This document shows, piece by piece, positions 1 to 46,620 of a stretch of 47,070 nt of DNA (positions within the stretch are counted from its first letter, which is position 1; each line of letters starts with the position of its first letter). Below the pieces are notes generated by a model, which was not told where the DNA came from, searched no databases, and saw only the letters and a list, made by a program, of their open reading frames with translations. Origin of the DNA: an uncultured Bacteroidales bacterium (GTDB lineage: Bacteria; Bacteroidota; Bacteroidia; Bacteroidales; Paludibacteraceae); NCBI GenBank assembly GCA_900317345.1, contig ONGK01000010.1:1-47070 (forward strand), given 5' to 3'. The position numbers and the translations under genes were made by a program.

Positions 1-70
1 GCCCCTCGACTTGCATGTGTTAGGCCTGTCGCTAGCGTTCATCCTGAGCCAGGATCAAACTCTTCGTTGT
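1..70 (-). rRNA. rrs: 16S ribosomal RNA, 5' end (partial)
   Basis: Read on the minus strand this is the start of a 16S rRNA, with the universal AGAGTTTGATCCTGGCTCAG site followed by GATGAACGCTAGCGACAGGC, a Bacteroidales-type start. The mature 5' end is placed near 70 by analogy with E. coli, which has eight bases before GAGTTTG. The gene runs off the left edge, so the rest of the rRNA operon lies outside the window. Its promoter is at 330-361, giving a leader of about 250 nt. Confidence 0.97.
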
Positions 71-588: not shown

Positions 589-620
589 TTTGTGTATGTC
601 AAAAAAAAGCAGTACCTTTG
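589..620 (+). promoter_or_regulatory. tRNA promoter (Gly/Leu)
   Basis: TTTG at 589-592, a 20-nt spacer, then TACCTTTG at 613-620. The spacer starts TGTATGTC and ends AAAAAAAAGCAG; after the -7 box comes CACCCGCTTT. It is nearly identical to the promoters before tRNA-Pro and tRNA-Met in this window. The expected start is near 627, about 50 nt before tRNA-Gly. Confidence 0.85.
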
Positions 621-675
621 CACCCGCTTTCAAAAAAAAGCAGAGTTCTTATACTTGATATAAAGAATAAAAATT

Positions 676-934: not shown

Positions 935-1360
935 ATGAGAAAACTGATGTTTGGGCTGCTGATATTGGCAGCAATAAGCGCAAATGCGCAGATAAATGCC
1001 ATTCTTGGCGATTGGAAAACCGTTGACGACAAAACCGGCGAACAACGCTCTGTCGTCACAATCTACAAGGCTTCGGACGGCCTATATTACGGCAAAATCA
1101 GCAAGATGCTCATGTACGGGTCCGAACTGCGCTGCGAGGCTTGCAAAGACGAAGACCACAACGCGCCTATTGAAGGACTCGTCATCATCCGCGGCATGAA
1201 AGCCGAATACGGACAACTGGTCGGAGGAAAGGTCCTGGACCCCGAGTCCGGCAAGTTCTACTATGGTAAGATTTACCTCAAAGACGGCAAACTCGTGCTG
1301 CGAGGCTCGCTCGATAAACGCGGTTTCCTCGGACGTAACCAAACATGGATTCGCAAATGA
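935..1360 (+). CDS. DUF2147 family exported protein
   Basis: A 141-residue protein with a cleavable signal peptide (about residues 1-19, ending ANA-QI). The mature part matches the DUF2147 pattern known from secreted Bacteroidota proteins: GDWKTVDDKTGEQRSVV near the start, YYGKISKM, the pair C-x2-C (CEAC), then DPESGKFYYGKI and a closing RGFLGRNQTWIRK. The molecular function of DUF2147 is unknown; a small lipocalin-like beta fold in the periplasm is likely. Its end overlaps the start of rdgB by four bases (ATGA), so the two are translationally coupled. Confidence 0.85.
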   Translation: MRKLMFGLLILAAISANAQINAILGDWKTVDDKTGEQRSVVTIYKASDGLYYGKISKMLMYGSELRCEACKDEDHNAPIEGLVIIRGMKAEYGQLVGGKVLDPESGKFYYGKIYLKDGKLVLRGSLDKRGFLGRNQTWIRK

Positions 1361-1953
1361 AACTGGTCTTTGCTTCAAATAATGCGCATAAATTATGCGA
1401 AGTACGTGCCATGATGCCTGCCGGCATTGAGGTGCTGAGTCTGCACGAGATAGGCTTTGAGCACGAGATTGACGAAACGGGCACTACACTCGCTGAAAAC
1501 AGCAAAATCAAGGCGGATACGGTGGCCGAATGGCTCAAGGCACATGACAAATGGTCGTCTGTGGATGGCGTGTTCGCGGACGATACGGGCCTCGAGATTG
1601 ATGCACTCAACGGCCAGCCTGGCGTGTATTCCGCCAGATGGGCAGGAAGCGCGGAGTCCAACCGCGCAAAAGCCCTGCATGAACTGGAAGGCAAAGACAA
1701 CAGAAACTGCCATTTCAAAACGGTTATCACGCTGATAACCAACGATAAAACCACACAGGTAGAAGGTCTCGTGCGCGGAAAAATAACGACCGAAGAATAC
1801 GGTCACGGAGGCTTCGGATACGACCCTATCTTTATTCCGGAAGGCTATGACAAAACCTTCGGCGAACTACCGGCAGAGGTGAAGAACAGCGTCAGCCACC
1901 GAGCAAGAGCGATAGCCAATTTAGTCGAAGTGCTAAAAATGTACGATTATTAA
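1357..1953 (+). CDS. rdgB: dITP/XTP pyrophosphatase (RdgB/HAM1)
   Basis: Hydrolyses deaminated purine triphosphates (dITP, ITP, XTP) to the monophosphate and pyrophosphate, keeping them out of DNA and RNA. Family hallmarks are visible: SNN at 7-9, ADDTGLEIDALNG with DDTG at 75-78, PGVYSARWAG, GFGYDPIF at 151-159 and SHR at 180-182. The 198-residue length is normal. I chose the ATG at 1357 rather than the one at 1345 because homologues start MKLVFA(S/T)xN and this gives a four-base overlap with the preceding gene. The last codons and stop belong to a 16-bp direct repeat copied at 2038-2053. Confidence 0.95.
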   Translation: MKLVFASNNAHKLCEVRAMMPAGIEVLSLHEIGFEHEIDETGTTLAENSKIKADTVAEWLKAHDKWSSVDGVFADDTGLEIDALNGQPGVYSARWAGSAESNRAKALHELEGKDNRNCHFKTVITLITNDKTTQVEGLVRGKITTEEYGHGGFGYDPIFIPEGYDKTFGELPAEVKNSVSHRARAIANLVEVLKMYDY

Positions 1954-1975
1954 GATTTTGCCCATTTATACGTGC

Positions 1976-2030
1976 TCGGTATAATCTCGGACTCTTATCG
2001 GAGGCAAGTCGGAGTTATATCGGACTCAAA
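1976..2030 (+). repeat. Five-unit 11-nt array (TCGGA-N6) before porZ
   Basis: TCGG(A/T) starts at 1976, 1987, 1998, 2009 and 2020, an exact 11-nt period over five units. It lies between two copies of the 16-bp direct repeat ACGATTATTAAGATTT (1943-1958 and 2038-2053). The first three units resemble, unit by unit, the three units on the minus strand at 46500-46532. No TTTG/TAnnTTTG promoter is seen in this 100-nt gap, so porZ may be read from upstream or through this array. Confidence 0.8.
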
Positions 2031-2053
2031 AACATACACGATTATTAAGATTT

Positions 2054-5000
2054 ATGAGAAAGTCAAGAATCATATTCTTCTCCATTCTGACATTCGTATA
2101 CTGTGTTTCGGCGCAGGCGGAGCAGTGGACAACCTATTTCGCGTACAATAACGTCACGCAGATTGCGATGGCTTCGGACAGGGTCTTCGCCGTTTCTGAT
2201 GGTAGCTTGTTCAGCGTGGACAAGCAGACTGAGATGATTACCAAATACGACCGGCAATCCGGTCTGCACGGAACAGGAATCAACTGCATCCACTACGATT
2301 CGATTGGTAATCAGTTGATTATCGCCTATAGTGACGGAAAGATTGATATTCTTTCTCCGCGCGGGAATACCTATATCAGCGAACTGTATAACAAGGATAT
2401 GACGCAGCGGAAGGACATCTATAATGTCACCATTAAAGGCCGCACAGCATACCTATCCACGCATTACGGTGTACAGACGATGGATTTGCGTGAGAACAAA
2501 CTGGTGGATAGTTACTGGCTCCGCCCTGGCGGACAGGAGACGCCTATTCAAGACATATTGGTTATGTCTGATAGTATTTTCGCCTTCGCGTCGGATAGCC
2601 TCTATTGCGCCTCTCTTGCAGACAATCTCGTGGATTACACCTATTGGAAACGCGAGAAGCGCAGTGCCCGTATTTTACCGGACGCCACAAAGGGAAAGCG
2701 CTATGTTGACGGCAACAACACTTGGTCTGCCGGCGGTTCTCTCGGTATCACCCGCGTCACCCCCACCGAAACCATCAACTACAAACCCGATGGCCCCCTT
2801 GTAAATATACCCTATAGACTTCGTGTCGCAGGAACCAGAGTTGGTCTTGTACAAGGTGGTTATGCCGCTCCATTTTTTTATCGACCAGGAATGGTGATGC
2901 TTTGGGATGACGAACATTGGACTAATTTCGACCAACAATATATGACCGCACATTTAGGTGTCCAAAATAGTAAAGATTATTGTGACATAGCCTTTGATCC
3001 TGCTGACTCATCACACTTTTTTGTAGCAAGTTTTGGATATGGACTCATGGAATTTAGGCAAGATACCTTTTATCATCACTATAATTCTTCCAACAGCGCT
3101 ATTGAACCCGTTATTCCTAATGGCAAATATCCATATCTATGGGTAGATGGATTAAAGTTTGATAATGATGGTAATCTATGGATGTTAAACGTATGTACTA
3201 ATGGCATCAAGGTTCTAACACCGGATACTGCCTGGCTTTCCTTCTCCAATGTCGCCTGCTCCGAGCTCGACCGTGCCCAAGACCTGATTATTTCTAATCA
3301 CAATCCGAATATTAAGATTTTCTCTTCTTATAGACGGGGTATTGGCATCATGGATGACAATGGTACACTTGAGGATCAAACGGATGACCGATCAGTCTTT
3401 TGTTCCTCTTTTACAGATGAAAACGGAATCGGATTGCTCATAGCTCGTATTCGCTCCATATTCCAGCCATCAGATGGGTCCTTATTGATTGGTACAGAGG
3501 CTGGTTTATTCCGTATCATTAACCCCGAGAACTTGCTTACCAACACCGCTCCTTGTTTGCCACTCATTGTTGACGACCCCGAGGAGGGACGGGTTGACAT
3601 TTTTTCTTCTGAAGTGATACAGAATATGATTCAAGATGAGCAGTCACGTATCTGGGTAGGAACAAAAACAAGTGGTGTATATTGCTTAAGTGAAGATTTA
3701 TCCTCCGTTATTTACCATTTTTCAATAGACAATAGTCCTCTCCCTAGCAACGATGTACTTTCGTTGGGACTCATGACTGCTACAAAACAAGTCTTCATCG
3801 GCACCAGCAGCGGACTATGCGCATACAAACTTGACGACCCTGAAGGGCCTACGGGTACAGACCACACCAATAACGACATACACGATAATGGTTCTATGAA
3901 ACGTTGGGAAACGCATTTCTCGTATAACAATGCCACTGCTATAGAGGATGCCGGAGACATGGTCTATGCACTCTCATATGGAGCCGTATTAGCAATCAAT
4001 AAAGAAACGGAAGAGACTACTCCCCTCTCAAAACTAACCGGGTTAAATGGAGGTGGCATTGTTAACATATGCTACAATCCGGATACGCGTAAAACTCTCT
4101 TGCTATACCAAAACGGATTAATAGATATAATTTACCCGGATGGAGAGATCAAAAATATGCCTGACGTATTGCTTTCGACAGTTACCAATCCGGGAGAGTT
4201 TTATAGTCCCTATAGTTATGGAGAGAATATTTATATATGTTCCTCGATAGGTATACTACGCGCTAACATGAGACGAAATGAAATCGCGGAAACATACATC
4301 CTTTACGACGATAACAAAGAAGTCTTTCCGCAATATGTATGCATTGTTAGAGATAGTATCTATGCCGCATCGCAAAATAAGGTTTTTGCGGCTCCTCTAA
4401 CTGCAAATTTAATTGATGGAGCTTCTTGGGAGCCCGTAATTACGCTCACTGGGGACGAAACTATTGTTGCTATGAGTAGTTATAATAATATGTTATACCT
4501 TCATATTGACAACACTCTATATGTACACCACGATGGCTTATGGGAAAAGCTTCGGCCCTCCGAGAAATGGGATAAAGTATATATGCATACAACAGGGCTT
4601 ATCGGGCATACAGATATGGGAATATACCGAATTACAACTGATTCGTGCGAAAAATTGGCTCTATCATACACTCCGAATGATATCGTTAGAAGCGGATCCG
4701 ATTATTGGATGGCGATAAGCGAAGAAAATATTATTCGCTGGAATCCCAACGAAACACAAGTTTTCTCCACAAATAGTCCTTTTGAGAATTTTACTTATCG
4801 AATACGTATCTTTGGAGATAAAATAATTATACTTCCTGGTGGATATCTCGCAGCTAATTATGGGAGAAAAGGAAATGTAATGATTTGTGAAAATAAAATT
4901 TGGACTAACATAACCTATCGAGATATTTTCCAAGTTACAGGCGGTAATTTATATTATGATTTTTGCGATGCTGCTGTAGATCCTTTTGATGCTTCTCATA

Positions 5001-6124
5001 TGTATATTGCTTCATTCGGATTCGGTATACACGAATTTCGCGACAACAAATATACCCAATGGATAATGCCTTGGAGCGCCCCAAACGGATTAGAACCCGT
5101 CATAGATCAAGAAGTAGGATTTACATGGGTGGATGGCCTACAATACGATAAGGATGGTAATTTATGGATGCTAAACAATTCACATAGCGGAGTCAAAGTA
5201 ATGATGAGAAACGGCACATGGGTTCGTATTAGCAACCGCGCCACTCAAGACCTAAATAGGACGAAAGATTTATTGATATGGAATCGGAATGCAAATATTA
5301 AGATTGTAACTTCTGCCAGGGTGACAACTGGCATTGGGGTATTTGATGACAAAGGTACCATTGAGAATAGTGGAGATGACCAATCGGTCTTTTATTCCTC
5401 CTTCATAGACCAAAACGGTAAACAGGTACAACCACAATACATCTACTCCGTATGCCAAATGGCTAATGGTGAAATCTGGGTAGGGACAGAAAGTGGAATT
5501 ATCATCATTCCTAATGTTAGTAAATTATTACAGCATGATAATCACTGTAAGCGGATTATTATTCCTCGTAATGATGGAACGGGTCTTGGTGACTATCTGC
5601 TTGGCGACGAAACAATTTATGCCATTACTGAGGATGCTGCAGGACGAAAATGGATTGGCTCTGCCACCTCTGGATTATATTTGGTTTCCGACGATGGACT
5701 GGAAATATTTGAGCATTTCACAAAAAACAATTCCCCTTTGGTATCGAATGAAATTTATTCACTCGCCATTCATCCAACCTCTGGAAAGGTATATATTGGT
5801 ACTAGTTTGGGATTAATGTCATATCAAAGTGACGCGAATGCTCCACAAGCAAATCTGAACTCTATCTATGCATACCCAAACCCTGTTCCGCGCAATTATA
5901 CAGGATACATTTCGATAACGGGACTGATGGAAAATACTATCGTTAATATTACTGACGAAGGAGGAAATCTCGTATGTAAAACTCGAAGTAATGGAGGTTT
6001 AGCCGTTTGGGATGGTAAAGATGCATACGGAAGACCTGTAACTCCGGGCATATATACTGCTCTTTGTAATGCTCAAGGAGGTCATAATGTATGTAAAATT
6101 TTGATCCTACATGAAACGAGATAA
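2054..6124 (+). CDS. porZ: PorZ-like type IX secretion protein with doubled propeller unit
   Basis: An exported protein of 1356 residues (signal peptide about 1-22, ending VSAQA). The start of the mature part (WTTYFAYNNVTQIA, then VFAVSDGSLFSVD) matches PorZ, which sits on the cell surface in the type IX attachment complex and binds A-LPS. Known PorZ is about 780 residues: two beta-propellers plus a C-terminal domain. Here the propeller region occurs twice, about residues 24-610 and 615-1255, with matching landmarks (WVDGLKFDNDGNLWML and WVDGLQYDKDGNLWML; GIGIMDDNGT and GIGVFDDKGT). One C-terminal domain follows (about 1270-1356: YPNPV, then VWDGKDAYGRPVTPGIY). Composition turns AT-rich from about 2800. 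It overlaps the next gene by 14 nt. Confidence 0.8.
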   Translation: MRKSRIIFFSILTFVYCVSAQAEQWTTYFAYNNVTQIAMASDRVFAVSDGSLFSVDKQTEMITKYDRQSGLHGTGINCIHYDSIGNQLIIAYSDGKIDILSPRGNTYISELYNKDMTQRKDIYNVTIKGRTAYLSTHYGVQTMDLRENKLVDSYWLRPGGQETPIQDILVMSDSIFAFASDSLYCASLADNLVDYTYWKREKRSARILPDATKGKRYVDGNNTWSAGGSLGITRVTPTETINYKPDGPLVNIPYRLRVAGTRVGLVQGGYAAPFFYRPGMVMLWDDEHWTNFDQQYMTAHLGVQNSKDYCDIAFDPADSSHFFVASFGYGLMEFRQDTFYHHYNSSNSAIEPVIPNGKYPYLWVDGLKFDNDGNLWMLNVCTNGIKVLTPDTAWLSFSNVACSELDRAQDLIISNHNPNIKIFSSYRRGIGIMDDNGTLEDQTDDRSVFCSSFTDENGIGLLIARIRSIFQPSDGSLLIGTEAGLFRIINPENLLTNTAPCLPLIVDDPEEGRVDIFSSEVIQNMIQDEQSRIWVGTKTSGVYCLSEDLSSVIYHFSIDNSPLPSNDVLSLGLMTATKQVFIGTSSGLCAYKLDDPEGPTGTDHTNNDIHDNGSMKRWETHFSYNNATAIEDAGDMVYALSYGAVLAINKETEETTPLSKLTGLNGGGIVNICYNPDTRKTLLLYQNGLIDIIYPDGEIKNMPDVLLSTVTNPGEFYSPYSYGENIYICSSIGILRANMRRNEIAETYILYDDNKEVFPQYVCIVRDSIYAASQNKVFAAPLTANLIDGASWEPVITLTGDETIVAMSSYNNMLYLHIDNTLYVHHDGLWEKLRPSEKWDKVYMHTTGLIGHTDMGIYRITTDSCEKLALSYTPNDIVRSGSDYWMAISEENIIRWNPNETQVFSTNSPFENFTYRIRIFGDKIIILPGGYLAANYGRKGNVMICENKIWTNITYRDIFQVTGGNLYYDFCDAAVDPFDASHMYIASFGFGIHEFRDNKYTQWIMPWSAPNGLEPVIDQEVGFTWVDGLQYDKDGNLWMLNNSHSGVKVMMRNGTWVRISNRATQDLNRTKDLLIWNRNANIKIVTSARVTTGIGVFDDKGTIENSGDDQSVFYSSFIDQNGKQVQPQYIYSVCQMANGEIWVGTESGIIIIPNVSKLLQHDNHCKRIIIPRNDGTGLGDYLLGDETIYAITEDAAGRKWIGSATSGLYLVSDDGLEIFEHFTKNNSPLVSNEIYSLAIHPTSGKVYIGTSLGLMSYQSDANAPQANLNSIYAYPNPVPRNYTGYISITGLMENTIVNITDEGGNLVCKTRSNGGLAVWDGKDAYGRPVTPGIYTALCNAQGGHNVCKILILHETR

Positions 6125-17060: not shown

Positions 17061-17069
17061 AATTCTATT

Positions 17070-17176
17070 AAAAAGTATATATATACTATGTATATATATA
17101 GTAAATGTGCTATTTTGTGCGTTTTCGGTGGTCTATCATATGGGTATCCTATGGGTATGGTATGGGTATCCTATGG
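17070..17176 (+). repeat. 107-nt dispersed repeat, copy A (hairpin + 11-nt array)
   Basis: It starts with an AT-rich inverted repeat (GTATATATATAC type, 17070-17101), then 29 unrelated bases, then four 11-nt units TATNNTATGGG starting at 17134, 17145, 17156 and 17167. Copy B lies on the minus strand at 43424-43530, with the same total length. Here the element lies within the 5' leader of the GNAT-fusion gene, between its promoter and start codon. Read in the direction of that gene it ends in an AT hairpin followed by CTTTTT. Confidence 0.85.
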
Positions 17177-17244
17177 TAAGGGAAGCATACGCACACGTAA
17201 ATGGGTGCTTTTTATGCCATGCGGGGTGTTACCGATTTTCGATG

Positions 17245-37094: not shown

Positions 37095-37126
37095 TTTGCA
37101 TATATCAAAAAAAAGCAGTACTTTTG
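37095..37126 (+). promoter_or_regulatory. tRNA-Pro promoter
   Basis: TTTG at 37095-37098 follows directly after the topA stop codon; the 20-nt spacer begins CATATATC and ends AAAAAAAAGCAG; TACTTTTG at 37119-37126; then CACCCGCTTT. It differs from the 589 promoter at only a few positions. Start near 37133, leaving a 120-nt leader before the tRNA. Confidence 0.85.
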
Positions 37127-37253
37127 CACCCGCTTTTGAAAATTAGAATGAGTAGGGCTCCCGAAAATTTTAATTTTTGGGAAGAGCGGGAGCACGACGA
37201 AAATTCATATGAGCGATGTTATCGCGAATCGTATTGAGTCGTCGCTCACGCGA

Positions 37254-38580: not shown

Positions 38581-38617
38581 TCAAAGAAAAAAGCGGCTTT
38601 GAGTAGCCAAAGGCTAC
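38581..38617 (-). terminator. Possible weak terminator after udk
   Basis: On the minus strand GTAGCC/GGCTAC with a TTT loop (38617-38603) is followed by TCAAAG/CTTTGA arms and a stretch AGCCGCTTTTTTC. This could end part of the udk transcript before the chr genes. The structure is modest. Confidence 0.45.
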
Positions 38618-38638
38618 GGTCTTTCGACTTTCGACTTT

Positions 38639-39253
38639 CTACTTATCATTCAACTGCTGCTTGACGAACTTGGCGAGCATGTTTATCGCCGCATTGTTGT
38701 GTCCTCCTTGCGGTACTATCACATCCGCGAAGCGTTTGCAGGGCTCGATGAACTGCTCGTGCATCGGTTTGAGCACACGCTGATAGCGGTCAAGAACGGC
38801 CTCTGCCGTACGTCCGCGTTCCACCACGTCACGCCGCATGACGCGTATCAGACGGTCGTCAGCGTCGGCGTCAACGAATATCTTCAGGTCCATCTGCTGC
38901 CGCATTTTCGGCTCACGCAGCGCCATAATACCTTCCACGATAATCACTTCGCGCGGCTCGATATGAATGGTCTCTTTCTGGCGCGTGCAGGTGATATACG
39001 AGTATATCGGCTGCTCTACGGGCTTGCCTTCCTTCAGCATCTCGATATGCTTGGTCAGCAGACCCCAGTCGAACGCATCGGGATGGTCGAAGTTGATGTT
39101 CTGGCGCTCCTCCACGGGCACATGACTACTGTCTTTGTAGTACGAATCCTGCGGAATGACCACCACTTCGCCTTTCGGAAGGCGCTCTATCAGTTTTCTC
39201 ACTACCGTTGTTTTACCCGAGCCGGTACCGCCCGCAATGCCGATGATAAACAT
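38639..39253 (-). CDS. udk: Uridine kinase
   Basis: A pyrimidine-salvage enzyme phosphorylating uridine and cytidine. The Walker A motif GIAGGTGSGKTTVVRKL is at the N-terminus, followed by IPQDSYYKD, NFDHPDAFDWGLL, VIIVEGIMALREPKM and RLIRVMRRDVVERGRT, all typical of Udk. The 204-residue length is normal. Two further uridine-kinase-like genes (9794 and 42055) are more distant relatives. Its promoter at 39285 is divergent from that of tdk, another salvage kinase. Confidence 0.95.
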   Translation of the reverse strand: MFIIGIAGGTGSGKTTVVRKLIERLPKGEVVVIPQDSYYKDSSHVPVEERQNINFDHPDAFDWGLLTKHIEMLKEGKPVEQPIYSYITCTRQKETIHIEPREVIIVEGIMALREPKMRQQMDLKIFVDADADDRLIRVMRRDVVERGRTAEAVLDRYQRVLKPMHEQFIEPCKRFADVIVPQGGHNNAAINMLAKFVKQQLNDK

Positions 39254-40039: not shown

Positions 40040-42068
40040 TATCATATTACCCTTAGCCATCCGGGATTGTTATACCTATAGCGTCCCGGATGGTTTGTCT
40101 ACTCCCCTCCCGGGCACACGTGTCATCGTGCCGCTGATGAACAAAGAGGTGCGGGGAGTTGTTCTGCGGGAGCATACCGAACCCGTCGAACCCGCGTTGG
40201 CGGCGAAGATTCGTCCGATTCTTGCGGTCTCTGATGCCGCGCCCGTCGTCTCGCCCCAGCAGCTCGCCCTATGGCAATGGATGAGCAGCTATTACATGTG
40301 TTCGTTGGGCGAAGTGATGTCGGCTGCCTTGCCCGGAGGACTCGACAAACGGCTCATCAACCCGCCCAAGCGGAGAAAGACGCACCTCAACGCATATGAC
40401 GGACCGGTCGAACCAGCCCATCCCCTCTCGCCCGCACAGACGAAAAGTGCCGATGACATCGAGCGTTTATGGACCGCCGGCAAGCAGATTGTCCTCCTGC
40501 ATGGCGTCACATCCAGCGGCAAGACGGATATCTACATCCATCTCATCCGCCAGCAGCTTGAGGCAGGAAAAAATGTGCTCTATCTGGTGCCCGAGATTGC
40601 CCTGACTACGCAACTCACCACGCGGCTCGAGCGTATTTTCGGAGATAAACTCATCGTCTATCACAGCCGTTTCACCGATGCCGAGCGCGCAGACAGGTAT
40701 GAAAAAATCTCCAATCTCAAATCTCAAATCTCAAATCTCAAATCTCAAATCTCCAATACCTACGTGGTCCTTGGTGCCCGCAGCGCCGTCTTCCTTCCCA
40801 TCCCGGACGTGGGTCTCGTCATCGTGGATGAGGAGCACGACCCCAGTTACAAGCAGGCGGAGCCTGCCCCGCGATACCATGCACGCGCAGCGGCAATCAT
40901 GCTCGCCAAGGAGCACGGAGCGCACGTGCTGTTAGGCACCGCCACGCCGTCCATCGAGTCCTATTATCTCGCCCGGAGAGGCATCTACGGCCTGGTGACG
41001 CTCACCCAGCGCTTCGGAGGCGTCGAGCTGCCGGACATACGTCTGGTGGACCTCAAACGCCAGTACGAGCGAAAGGAGATGTACGGCCATTTCAGCGACC
41101 CACTGGTGGAGCGTATCCGCCAATGCCTCGCGGACCACAAGCAGGTTATCCTCTTCCAGAATAGACGCGGCTACGCGCCGCAGATACAATGCGTTCAGTG
41201 CGGACAGCCGCCGCGGTGCATCCAGTGCGATGTGCCGATGACGCTCCATATGCGCGCGAACGAGCTCCGATGCCATTACTGCGGTTACCACACGCCCGTG
41301 CCGACCGTCTGCCCGCATTGCGGAGGCGAATACAAGACCATCGGATTCGGCACGGAGCGCATCGAGGACGAGATACAGACCCTTTTCCCCGAAGCACGGG
41401 TGCTCCGGATGGACCTCGACACCACGCGAAACAAGTCCGCGTACCAGGATATCATCAACGCCTTTGCCAAACATGAGTGCGACATCCTCGTCGGCACCCA
41501 GATGATTACCAAAGGCCTGCATTTCGATGACGTCCGCCTCGTGGCGGTACTCAATGCCGACCCGCTCTTCAACCAGCCTGATTTCCGGGCATACGAACGC
41601 GCTTTCCAGATGCTGGAGCAGGTAGCGGGACGCGCCGGACGAAAAGGCACCAAAGGGGAGGTATGGATACAGACTTTCGATACCGGCAATGCGGTCTTGC
41701 GCATGGTTGGGGCGCATGACTACCGAGCCTTGTATGAGCAGCAGATTGCGGAGCGGGAATTGTTCAAATATCCGCCGTTCCACCGCCTCATCCGGTTGCA
41801 GCTACGCCATGCCAAACAGCAGCAGGTGCACGAAACCGCCACGCTGCTCCAAGCGCATCTCAGCCGCATCTTCGGCACGCGCGTCTCGGCCGTCATCATC
41901 CCCTCCGTGGAGCGAGTGCAGGCTTATTACATACGCGAACTCACCCTCCGCATCGAGCAAGGGGCAAATATCGCCGAAGCTAAGCGACGGCTCAACGAGG
42001 CAATAACGTATATCGCTTCGATTGCATCGAATAAAAACGTAAAGACCATCATAGATGTTGATTCCTGA
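40023..42068 (+). CDS. priA: Primosomal replication restart helicase PriA
   Basis: A 3'-5' DNA helicase that reloads the replisome at stalled forks. From the start come the N-terminal DNA-binding domain ([16 protein letters not shown]), Walker [11 protein letters not shown] near residue 160, VDEEHD near 270, [13 protein letters not shown], and the zinc region with repeated CxxC ([25 protein letters not shown]), then [15 protein letters not shown] and VAGRAGRKG. The GTG at 40023 is the best start; the longer open frame upstream is tdk out of frame. An in-frame repeat (SNLKSQI units, about residues 229-245) sits where relatives have a short loop. 681 residues. Confidence 0.93.
40706..40754 (+). 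repeat. Seven-copy heptanucleotide tract inside priA
   Basis: AATCTCC, five copies of AATCTCA, then AATCTCC, seven 7-nt units in a row. Three units make 21 nt, so the protein shows a seven-residue repeat SNLKSQI. Gain or loss of one unit would shift the frame of priA. Confidence 0.92.
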
Positions 42069-43038: not shown

Positions 43039-43070
43039 TTTGCGTATATCAGAAAAAAGCAGTACCTTTG
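43039..43070 (+). promoter_or_regulatory. tRNA-Met promoter
   Basis: TTTG at 43039-43042, a 20-nt spacer starting CGTATATC and ending AGAAAAAAGCAG, TACCTTTG at 43063-43070. It shares the GCAG-ended spacer with the other rRNA/tRNA promoters, but the sequence after the -7 box (TCGTCGATTT) differs. Confidence 0.82.
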
Positions 43071-43288
43071 TCGTCGATTTCGTCGATTAACGACTTCGTT
43101 GCTCTGCAACTCGTGTAGTTACCGGGAAATCTCCTCTCCGATTAAAACATCGCTCCGCTAGCGTTTTAATCGGTTAATTATCTCGGGAGGAATGCTAGTG
43201 AAACGATATTCCGACCGAAGAGCGTAGCATAATACGTAGCACTATACAAGCGCAGAGCGCGCAGTCGTGCGAGTATTAATGCAAGCGA
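43071..43288 (+). other. Long structured leader before tRNA-Met
   Basis: About 210 nt lie between the predicted transcription start and the tRNA. They hold the strong inverted repeat CCGATTAAAAC/GTTTTAATCGG (43138-43173) and smaller repeats such as CGTCGATT. No open frame of note is seen. Other tRNA leaders here are 50 and 120 nt. Confidence 0.6.
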
Positions 43289-43395: not shown

Positions 43396-43423
43396 CTATT
43401 ATGCTGGGGATATGCTATGCGCT

Positions 43424-43530
43424 CCATAGGATAACCATATGATACCCATAGGATACCCATATGATAGACGCCAAAATCTGTCATTTTTACGCCTCTTTCT
43501 ATATATATACGTAGTATATATATACTTTTT
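43424..43530 (-). repeat. 107-nt dispersed repeat, copy B (hairpin + 11-nt array)
   Basis: On the minus strand it matches copy A at 17070-17176 over the same 107 nt: a 32-nt AT-rich inverted repeat with one difference, a 29-nt unrelated spacer of identical length, then 46 nt with three differences holding four 11-nt units of TATNNTATGG type. It lies between tRNA-Met and the terminator of the beta-helix gene. Confidence 0.85.
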
Positions 43531-46499: not shown

Positions 46500-46532
46500 T
46501 TTACCTCCGATACGACTCCGAGATTACTCCGA
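46500..46532 (-). repeat. Three-unit 11-nt array (TCGGA-N6)
   Basis: On the plus strand TCCGA starts at 46506, 46517 and 46528, so on the minus strand TCGGA repeats with an exact 11-nt period. It lies about 60-85 nt upstream of the cassette promoter and has the same orientation toward its downstream gene as the five-unit array before porZ. Confidence 0.78.
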
Positions 46533-46563
46533 TAACCCGCTTTTGGTGATGTTAGGTAATGAC

Positions 46564-46620
46564 CACGTAAAAACCACATAAAAACCAGTTACCAATACCC
46601 ATAAAGTCTCCCATAAAAAA
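46564..46620. other. A-rich short repeats between array and terminator
   Basis: CACGTAAAAAC (46564-46574) and CACATAAAAAC (46575-46585) form another pair with 11-nt spacing; CCCATAAA recurs at 46598 and 46610. No gene is seen. Confidence 0.5.

Follow-up and report, generated by a model that had tools for sequence, protein, structure and literature searches.

A phased 11-bp array upstream of porZ forms the core of an intergenic cassette dispersed in one genus of rumen Paludibacteraceae

The 11-nt-period array upstream of porZ in the window (the whole 47,070-nt stretch of DNA analysed here, from genome G000) makes up the core of an intergenic cassette, dispersed in the genome, with the layout end repeat, phased 11-bp units, end repeat, and is not a porZ-specific device. 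The cassette has near-fixed ends, end spacings that change in steps of ~11 nt and a strict core period of 11 nt, and is confined to one genus among the genomes searched. Unlinked loci of one genome have similar cores, whereas cores at the same junctions in different genomes mostly differ.

The cassette upstream of porZ

At window 1935-2053 the whole element forms an intergenic cassette of ~120 bp, in which AAATCTTAATAATCGTACATTT-like direct repeats of ~22 nt bracket the 11-nt-period array. Its parts and neighbours, together with a second array in the window, are:

1345..1953, + strand: upstream gene, Ham1 family (rdgB-type); Pfam Ham1p_like, 1.6e-60
1935..1958, - strand: end repeat, left in + coordinates; AAATCTTAATAATCGTACATTTTT on the minus strand
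1976..2030, + strand: core array, five 11-nt units: TCGGTATAATC, TCGGACTCTTA, TCGGAGGCAAG, TCGGAGTTATA, TCGGACTCAAA
2030..2053, - strand: end repeat, right in + coordinates; 95 nt from the left end
2054..6124, + strand: downstream gene porZ; Pfam PorZ_N_b_propeller, 2.2e-64
46500..46532, - strand: second TCGGA array, three units: TCGGAGTAATC, TCGGAGTCGTA, TCGGAGGTAAA

An earlier note on this DNA had described five TCGG(A/T)N6 units without drift and a three-unit array on the minus strand near 46.5 kb. Both are present; the five units start at 1976 (TCGGTATAATC), 1987, 1998, 2009 and 2020 (TCGGACTCAAA), with zero drift. The porZ array is framed by two direct AAATCTTAATAATCGTACATTTTT-like copies. 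The Ham1/rdgB-type gene has its stop codon (TAA, 1951-1953) within the left copy (1935-1958), and the right copy (2030-2053) adjoins the porZ start codon at 2054.

Between G000 and its relative G002, the element (1937-2056) is identical at 118/120 positions and the fourfold sites of rdgB at 43/80. Coding DNA at 1250-1449 is also unusually alike (191/200). The conservation of the element would fit constraint, but because this coding DNA is similar too, local recombination is possible instead. At the rdgB-porZ junction, G002 has the same core as G000, whilst the core in G034 differs.

Two observations concern the surroundings. The contig starts within a 16S rRNA gene (window 1-70, minus strand), and rdgB lies on G002 contig C5 at coordinates 1345-1950, as in the window; both assemblies therefore probably break at one same place. 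The Ham1/rdgB proteins of relatives (L116, L117, L119, L121) carry short in-frame insertions at varying points, e.g. PHPTSPEGE-like.

End repeats and their spacing

The heart of the end repeat is the 14-mer AATCTTAATAATCG, and 10 of its 11 exact copies in G000 form five pairs around TCGGA arrays, spaced 95, 95, 95, 106 and 177 nt. The two ends of a cassette are direct repeats in the same orientation. Across the genus (rumen Paludibacteraceae MAGs), paired ends were found in at least 70 of 178 genomes, a lower bound from searches that, for genus and order alike, require exact end motifs; amongst the good-quality genomes the count was 29/68. As a control, the reversed paired-end pattern was found in 0/178 genus genomes. 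Outside the genus, paired ends were found in none of 390 Bacteroidales genomes (393 were drawn from the order; three matched, all within the genus). A viral origin was rejected, the paired-end pattern being unmatched in the viral contigs searched.

The distance between end starts is stepped. Amongst the 150 copies listed (at least 150 exist, and the search pattern allowed 80-110 nt), spacing was 93-96 nt in 35, 104-108 nt in 112, 85 nt in one and 101 nt in two. Amongst 71 non-redundant fetched copies it was 93-96 nt in 19 and 104-108 nt in 52. The fetched set, which over-represents copy-rich genomes, combined 30 loci (one per genome), 40 chosen places (eight genomes, mostly copy-rich) and eight earlier copies, minus five duplicates; removal of two near-identical copies, including the G002 porZ copy, took it from 73 to 71.

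A second end type, AAATAGAACATT, accompanies the same kind of core at spacings of 72, 73 and 84 nt in three genomes, and in G026 it frames that genome's own core. Exact AAATAGAACATT pairs were found in only 3/178 genomes, so this end type is either minor or varies too much to be caught by exact matching. Imperfect AAATAGAACATT copies flank G000 and G002 arrays at 83-85 nt. The end spacings lie near 7, 8, 9 and 10 turns of B-DNA, in steps of ~11.

Ends frequently overlap a gene's stop codon or adjoin the following gene's start codon. Where enough flank was available (70 copies), the neighbouring genes are co-directional for 45 cassettes and convergent or divergent for 17; six cassettes fall within mechanical ORFs, and two were unclear. 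At the GTPase-TonB receptor junction (L377, L382, L386, L401, L350, L364), the downstream end reads as a protein start, M-G/S/R-K-I-L-K-I-V-N-F, and the end repeat therefore seems to be incorporated into a signal sequence.

Period and species pattern of the core

Across the 71 non-redundant copies, interior self-match peaked at lags 11 (0.536) and 22 (0.452); every other lag between 4 and 25 gave 0.22-0.26, equal to background. The best agreement of four units was 0.81 at period 11 versus 0.56-0.60 at periods 9, 10, 12 and 13. Shuffled interiors gave 0.59, and 64/71 copies equalled or exceeded the best shuffled value; 7/71 are weakly periodic.

Core similarity was 32.0 within genomes (121 pairs) versus 10.0 between genomes (2364 pairs), with 8.1 when shuffled; 0/2000 label permutations reached the observed difference. 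End repeats, too, show greater similarity within genomes (37.4) than between them (32.1), and shared descent therefore accounts for part of the pattern. Examples of the units are ACGGTTTAACC in G034, GCCTTCGACTT in G100, CCCCGATATTC in G110, GACCCGCGGGA in G128, AATACCGATAA in G026 and TCCGATAAGAG in G000. Units from ten genomes keep a slight similarity (6.04/11 matching versus 5.63 shuffled, above all 300 shuffles).

Uniformity within a genome is incomplete: G131 and G080 have two or more core types, one G034 copy deviates and, among the matches listed, G102, G148 and G154 appear mixed. Some cores are common to several species (G065/G067/G016; G085/G104/G120/G123), and TCGGA-type cores occur in G000, G002, G033, G080 and G110. 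The core lies either way round between the ends.

Different genomes carry different cores at the same junctions. Ten genomes have the cassette at GTPase-TonB receptor; serC-serA, a CDP-alcohol transferase junction and a further junction, beside L385 and with no Pfam match, each have it in four. Neighbours at the sites examined were Ham1/PorZ, aminotransferase/2-hydroxyacid dehydrogenase, GTPase/TonB receptor and CDP-alcohol transferase; the names serC, engB (EngB-like GTPase) and pssA (pssA-like CDP-alcohol transferase) are presumptive, based on Pfam families. In other species serC-serA holds octamers (G002, G033, G036), heptamers (G005, G029), a two-base spacer (G003, G030) or other sequence (the G014 row fell within a gene and was left out).

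TCGGA arrays and other phased arrays in the genomes

TCGG-N7-TCGG occurs eight times in the window versus 1.72 expected, a count reached in 0/100 shuffles. The comparison of genome-wide counts with controls that the earlier note had proposed came out in its favour: in the 1.96-Mb draft genome of G000, three phased TCGGA units gave 20 matches in 11 arrays, and the reversed pattern gave none. Its statement that the arrays lie upstream of genes and point the same way holds for part of the set. The TCGG strand was co-directional with the nearer downstream gene in nine of 13 TCGGA arrays, opposite in three and, in one between divergent genes, not clearly assignable, and the 46.5-kb array sits in a long spacer, the nearest ORF of at least 70 aa on that side being 255 nt off (mechanical ORF call). 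Seven of the 13 finish 31-73 nt from the downstream start codon, and one TCGGA array falls inside a glycosyltransferase gene. No AATCTTAATAATCG ends were found around the 46500-46532 array. G002 holds two strict TCGGA arrays in total, and only the porZ array, out of 11 strict arrays in G000, was recognised at the same place in this close relative.

About 20 nt from the second TCGGA array lies an 11-nt array of ACCACATAAAA (window 46553-46595), such that two phased arrays with different units adjoin.

We also scanned the genomes for stretches that self-match at a given lag. The G000 sample (429,031 bp, ~22% of the genome) was non-random, consisting of the window and chosen long contigs, all with TCGGA arrays; one G002 stretch and the G033 stretch were also picked for TCGGA arrays. 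The G000 sample held 35 arrays at period 7, 25 at period 11, three at period 12 and none at periods 10 and 13, versus a mean of 0.1 at period 11 (0 to 0.2 across periods) in dinucleotide shuffles (n=10). The position of the arrays speaks for the earlier note as well: 19 of the 25 period-11 arrays lie outside called ORFs, though mechanically called ORFs make up 90.5% of the sample. These arrays have many unrelated units (e.g. TATCCTATGGG, TACGTGGTCAT, GACGAATTATT, TCGGTCGACCG). One of the 25 (L094 6613), in a beta-helix-like protein, appears by inspection to have matched by chance.

The G002 sample (472,692 bp) held 57 period-7, 24 period-11 and 19 period-8 arrays, with periods 10 and 13 absent. 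Six genus relatives (400 kb, partly picked for TCGGA matches) gave 12 period-11 and 27 period-7 arrays; other Bacteroidales (272 kb) gave none and three, respectively. Conservation of one face within the unit was rejected: variable columns cluster no more strongly at period 11 (mean z 0.62) than at period 7 (0.47) or period 8 (0.42) (the family grouping in this test was over-merged and was unused).

Arrays without cassette ends

Many period-11 arrays have no cassette ends. Three G000 genes, encoding an M16 peptidase, an ABC-F-type ATPase and a glycosyltransferase of family 9, contain in-frame period-11 arrays, and the in-protein arrays have no cassette ends. Orthologues carry arrays at identical codons of the M16 site with other units or periods: amongst the 58 parsed of 80 named MAG loci, the best period of the linker was 11 in 22, 9 in seven, 16-18 in six, 7 in three and unclear in 20. 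The remaining 22/80 were unparsed by the pattern, five of these being plain, non-repetitive linkers. Turnover of arrays is thus general in the genus, and a period-11 array is not always a cassette.

At one position of the M16 peptidase linker (L193-L206, L243-L322), tandem arrays of many units and several periods occur across species, apparently in frame. So many different units at one codon position show how freely the genus rewrites a protein linker. Rickettsia palindromic elements are short repeats, palindromes of defined sequence, that lie in-frame within protein genes. The in-frame arrays in the M16, ABC-F and glycosyltransferase genes are alike in position, but differ in that the tandem arrays of the genus have a species-varying unit.

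Discussion

Quite possibly, though short of probably, the cassette is a helically phased multi-site scaffold for a putative DNA-binding protein, with drifting recognition and with cores homogenised between loci. The core would be a multi-site platform that the protein occupies at repeated positions along roughly one side of the helix, comparable to ParR at parC or to replication proteins at iterons. The word it recognises would drift from species to species, and one core type would replace others genome-wide, probably by gene conversion or by exchange of cassettes via the ends they share. We suggest a bound protein because the ends step in spacing and the core has an 11-nt period, and exchange through the ends because cores are similar within genomes at sites common to several genomes. 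Candidate roles of the complex are chromosome organisation, segregation and insulation between genes.

The phased cooperative binding proposed in the earlier note survives in part. End spacing in ~11-nt steps fits a helically phased protein-DNA complex, whilst a dedicated porZ regulator or fixed regulon lacks support, given that only 1/11 strict arrays was recognised in place in G002, that neighbour genes are unrelated, that the unit is replaced between species and that the glycosyltransferase array lies in a gene. A phased array beside a gene need not be that gene's operator.

Several observations count against a scaffold. The core period is 11.0, not 10.5, and five units therefore drift ~2 bp relative to B-DNA. 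The spacing of 101 nt in two copies is off-step, and end pairs 177 and 165 nt apart occur in G000 and G014. The incomplete uniformity of cores, the cores common to several species, the core orientation, the period-11 arrays that lack cassette ends and the contribution of shared descent weigh on the same side.

Going further, it is possible, if on the unlikely side, that the cassette is the chromosomal, many-copy equivalent of a centromere or satellite system: helically phased, its ends and sites unchanging, with an 11-bp word that changes between species and is nearly uniform per genome, putative rapid co-evolution of protein and site, and cores exchanged via the ends. The usual dispersed bacterial repeats have one sequence per family, whereas here frame and sites persist and the inner word is rewritten genome-wide. 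This is reminiscent of eukaryotic satellites and the proteins that bind them, which turn over species by species, here in a 2-Mb genome.

We think it rather unlikely that the cassette is a non-autonomous mobile element (MITE-like) that copies into gene boundaries, its ends and phased core being recombinase or transposase sites. Such an element would account for dispersed copies with shared ends and for a junction that is cassette-free in some species (down to the two-base spacer at serC-serA in G003 and G030), and BrickBuilt of Porphyromonas is a MITE with a tandem core (PMC4596501). However, the cassette ends are direct and not terminal inverted repeats, no target duplication was evident outside the ends in loci read individually and non-systematically, and several junctions are common to many species with swapped cores, unlike fresh insertions. 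The copied repeat that the earlier note gave as its alternative explains dispersal, but alone leaves the change of core with constant ends and site unexplained.

That the arrays are neutral minisatellites, created and homogenised by slippage in unconstrained DNA with no bound protein, we regard as unlikely. The main support for slippage is that array turnover is general and that some period-11 arrays are not cassettes. Period-7 and period-8 arrays are abundant in the same genomes, M16 linker units and even periods vary between species at the same codons, and serC-serA has heptamers or octamers in other species. Local slippage gives no reason, however, to expect ends that are conserved and spaced in steps, cores that resemble one another between unlinked loci in a genome, or the missing periods 10 and 13. 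A neutral minisatellite would have no conserved framing ends, which describes other period-11 arrays, e.g. those in genes, but not the cassette.

An RNA-level element, in which the transcript fold of the array controls translation, termination or stability, is very unlikely. Some families fold strongly on one strand (the L093 array at z -6.5 and the L090 array at z -5.2) and the porZ core folds modestly (1970-2034, + strand; z -2.7), but the porZ element as a whole is ordinary (z -0.35 and -1.0), the orientation of the core relative to the ends flips, and no Rfam match was found at 1900-2100 up to E 1. With columns permuted, 9/49 period-11 arrays stay at p<=0.05 versus 4/92 period-7 arrays, whilst the majority of period-11 arrays fold no better than control (median p 0.33). 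After this control, RNA hairpins were dropped as a general explanation; they account for a few families only.

Lastly, an operator array of a dedicated porZ regulator is most improbable: although the array is directly upstream of porZ and the element is far more alike in G002 (118/120) than are the rdgB fourfold sites (43/80), neighbours at other copies are unrelated, porZ is the one strict array of 11 recognised in G002, G034 carries another core at porZ, and the 191/200 similarity of nearby coding DNA means that local recombination may explain the conservation.

Related elements

No description of the cassette was found in the open-licence literature searched by keyword. It falls short of the full definition of its nearest described relatives: BrickBuilt, R1 parC and the TAACTGA heptamers.

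The parC site of plasmid R1 has a five-repeat layout. ParR binds phased 11-bp direct repeats in parC, and repeat sequence and cognate protein vary between families whilst the layout keeps the same role (PMC9426499). This is the nearest phased array found, the cassette core likewise being made of phased direct repeats of about one helical turn. It differs in being a single plasmid site beside parM, whereas the cassette has many chromosomal copies with shared ends, and there were no ParR/ParM genes among the neighbours at the junctions examined.

BrickBuilt, a MITE of Porphyromonas gingivalis, has a 23-nt unit and small inverted-repeat ends (PMC4596501). It is the nearest described Bacteroidales element found, sharing with the cassette its order, a dispersed intergenic location and a tandem-repeat core between leader and tail parts (PMC4596501); by comparison, the cassette has a species-variable 11-nt unit and direct-repeat ends at stepped spacing.

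Intergenic TAACTGA heptamer repeats are described from Beggiatoaceae, some cyanobacteria and Bacteroidetes (PMC4679880). As short tandem repeats upstream of and near start codons they resemble the heptamer arrays of the genus (PMC4679880), and are the nearest start-codon-proximal repeats found. They consist of a single 7-nt word without framing ends, in contrast to the 11-nt period, many words and framing ends of the cassette.

Other repeats in the window and genus

Heptamer and octamer arrays are plentiful in the genus, with examples in the window at 38614-38650 and 40702-40763. A ~16-nt repeat class with AGCGGTCT-like words also recurs in the window and sampled loci. Sequences like GCAGTACCTTTGCACC recur at window 613-625, 37119-37131 and 43063-43075 and elsewhere, and resemble the Bacteroidetes promoter motif TAnnTTTG. 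A second repeat family, at window 17066-17189 and 43411-43530, comprises a palindrome-like AAAAAGTATATATATACTATGTATATATATAGTAA, then a linker, then an 11-nt array of TATCCTATGGG; in five aligned G000 copies the linker is poorly conserved in sequence and near-constant in length.
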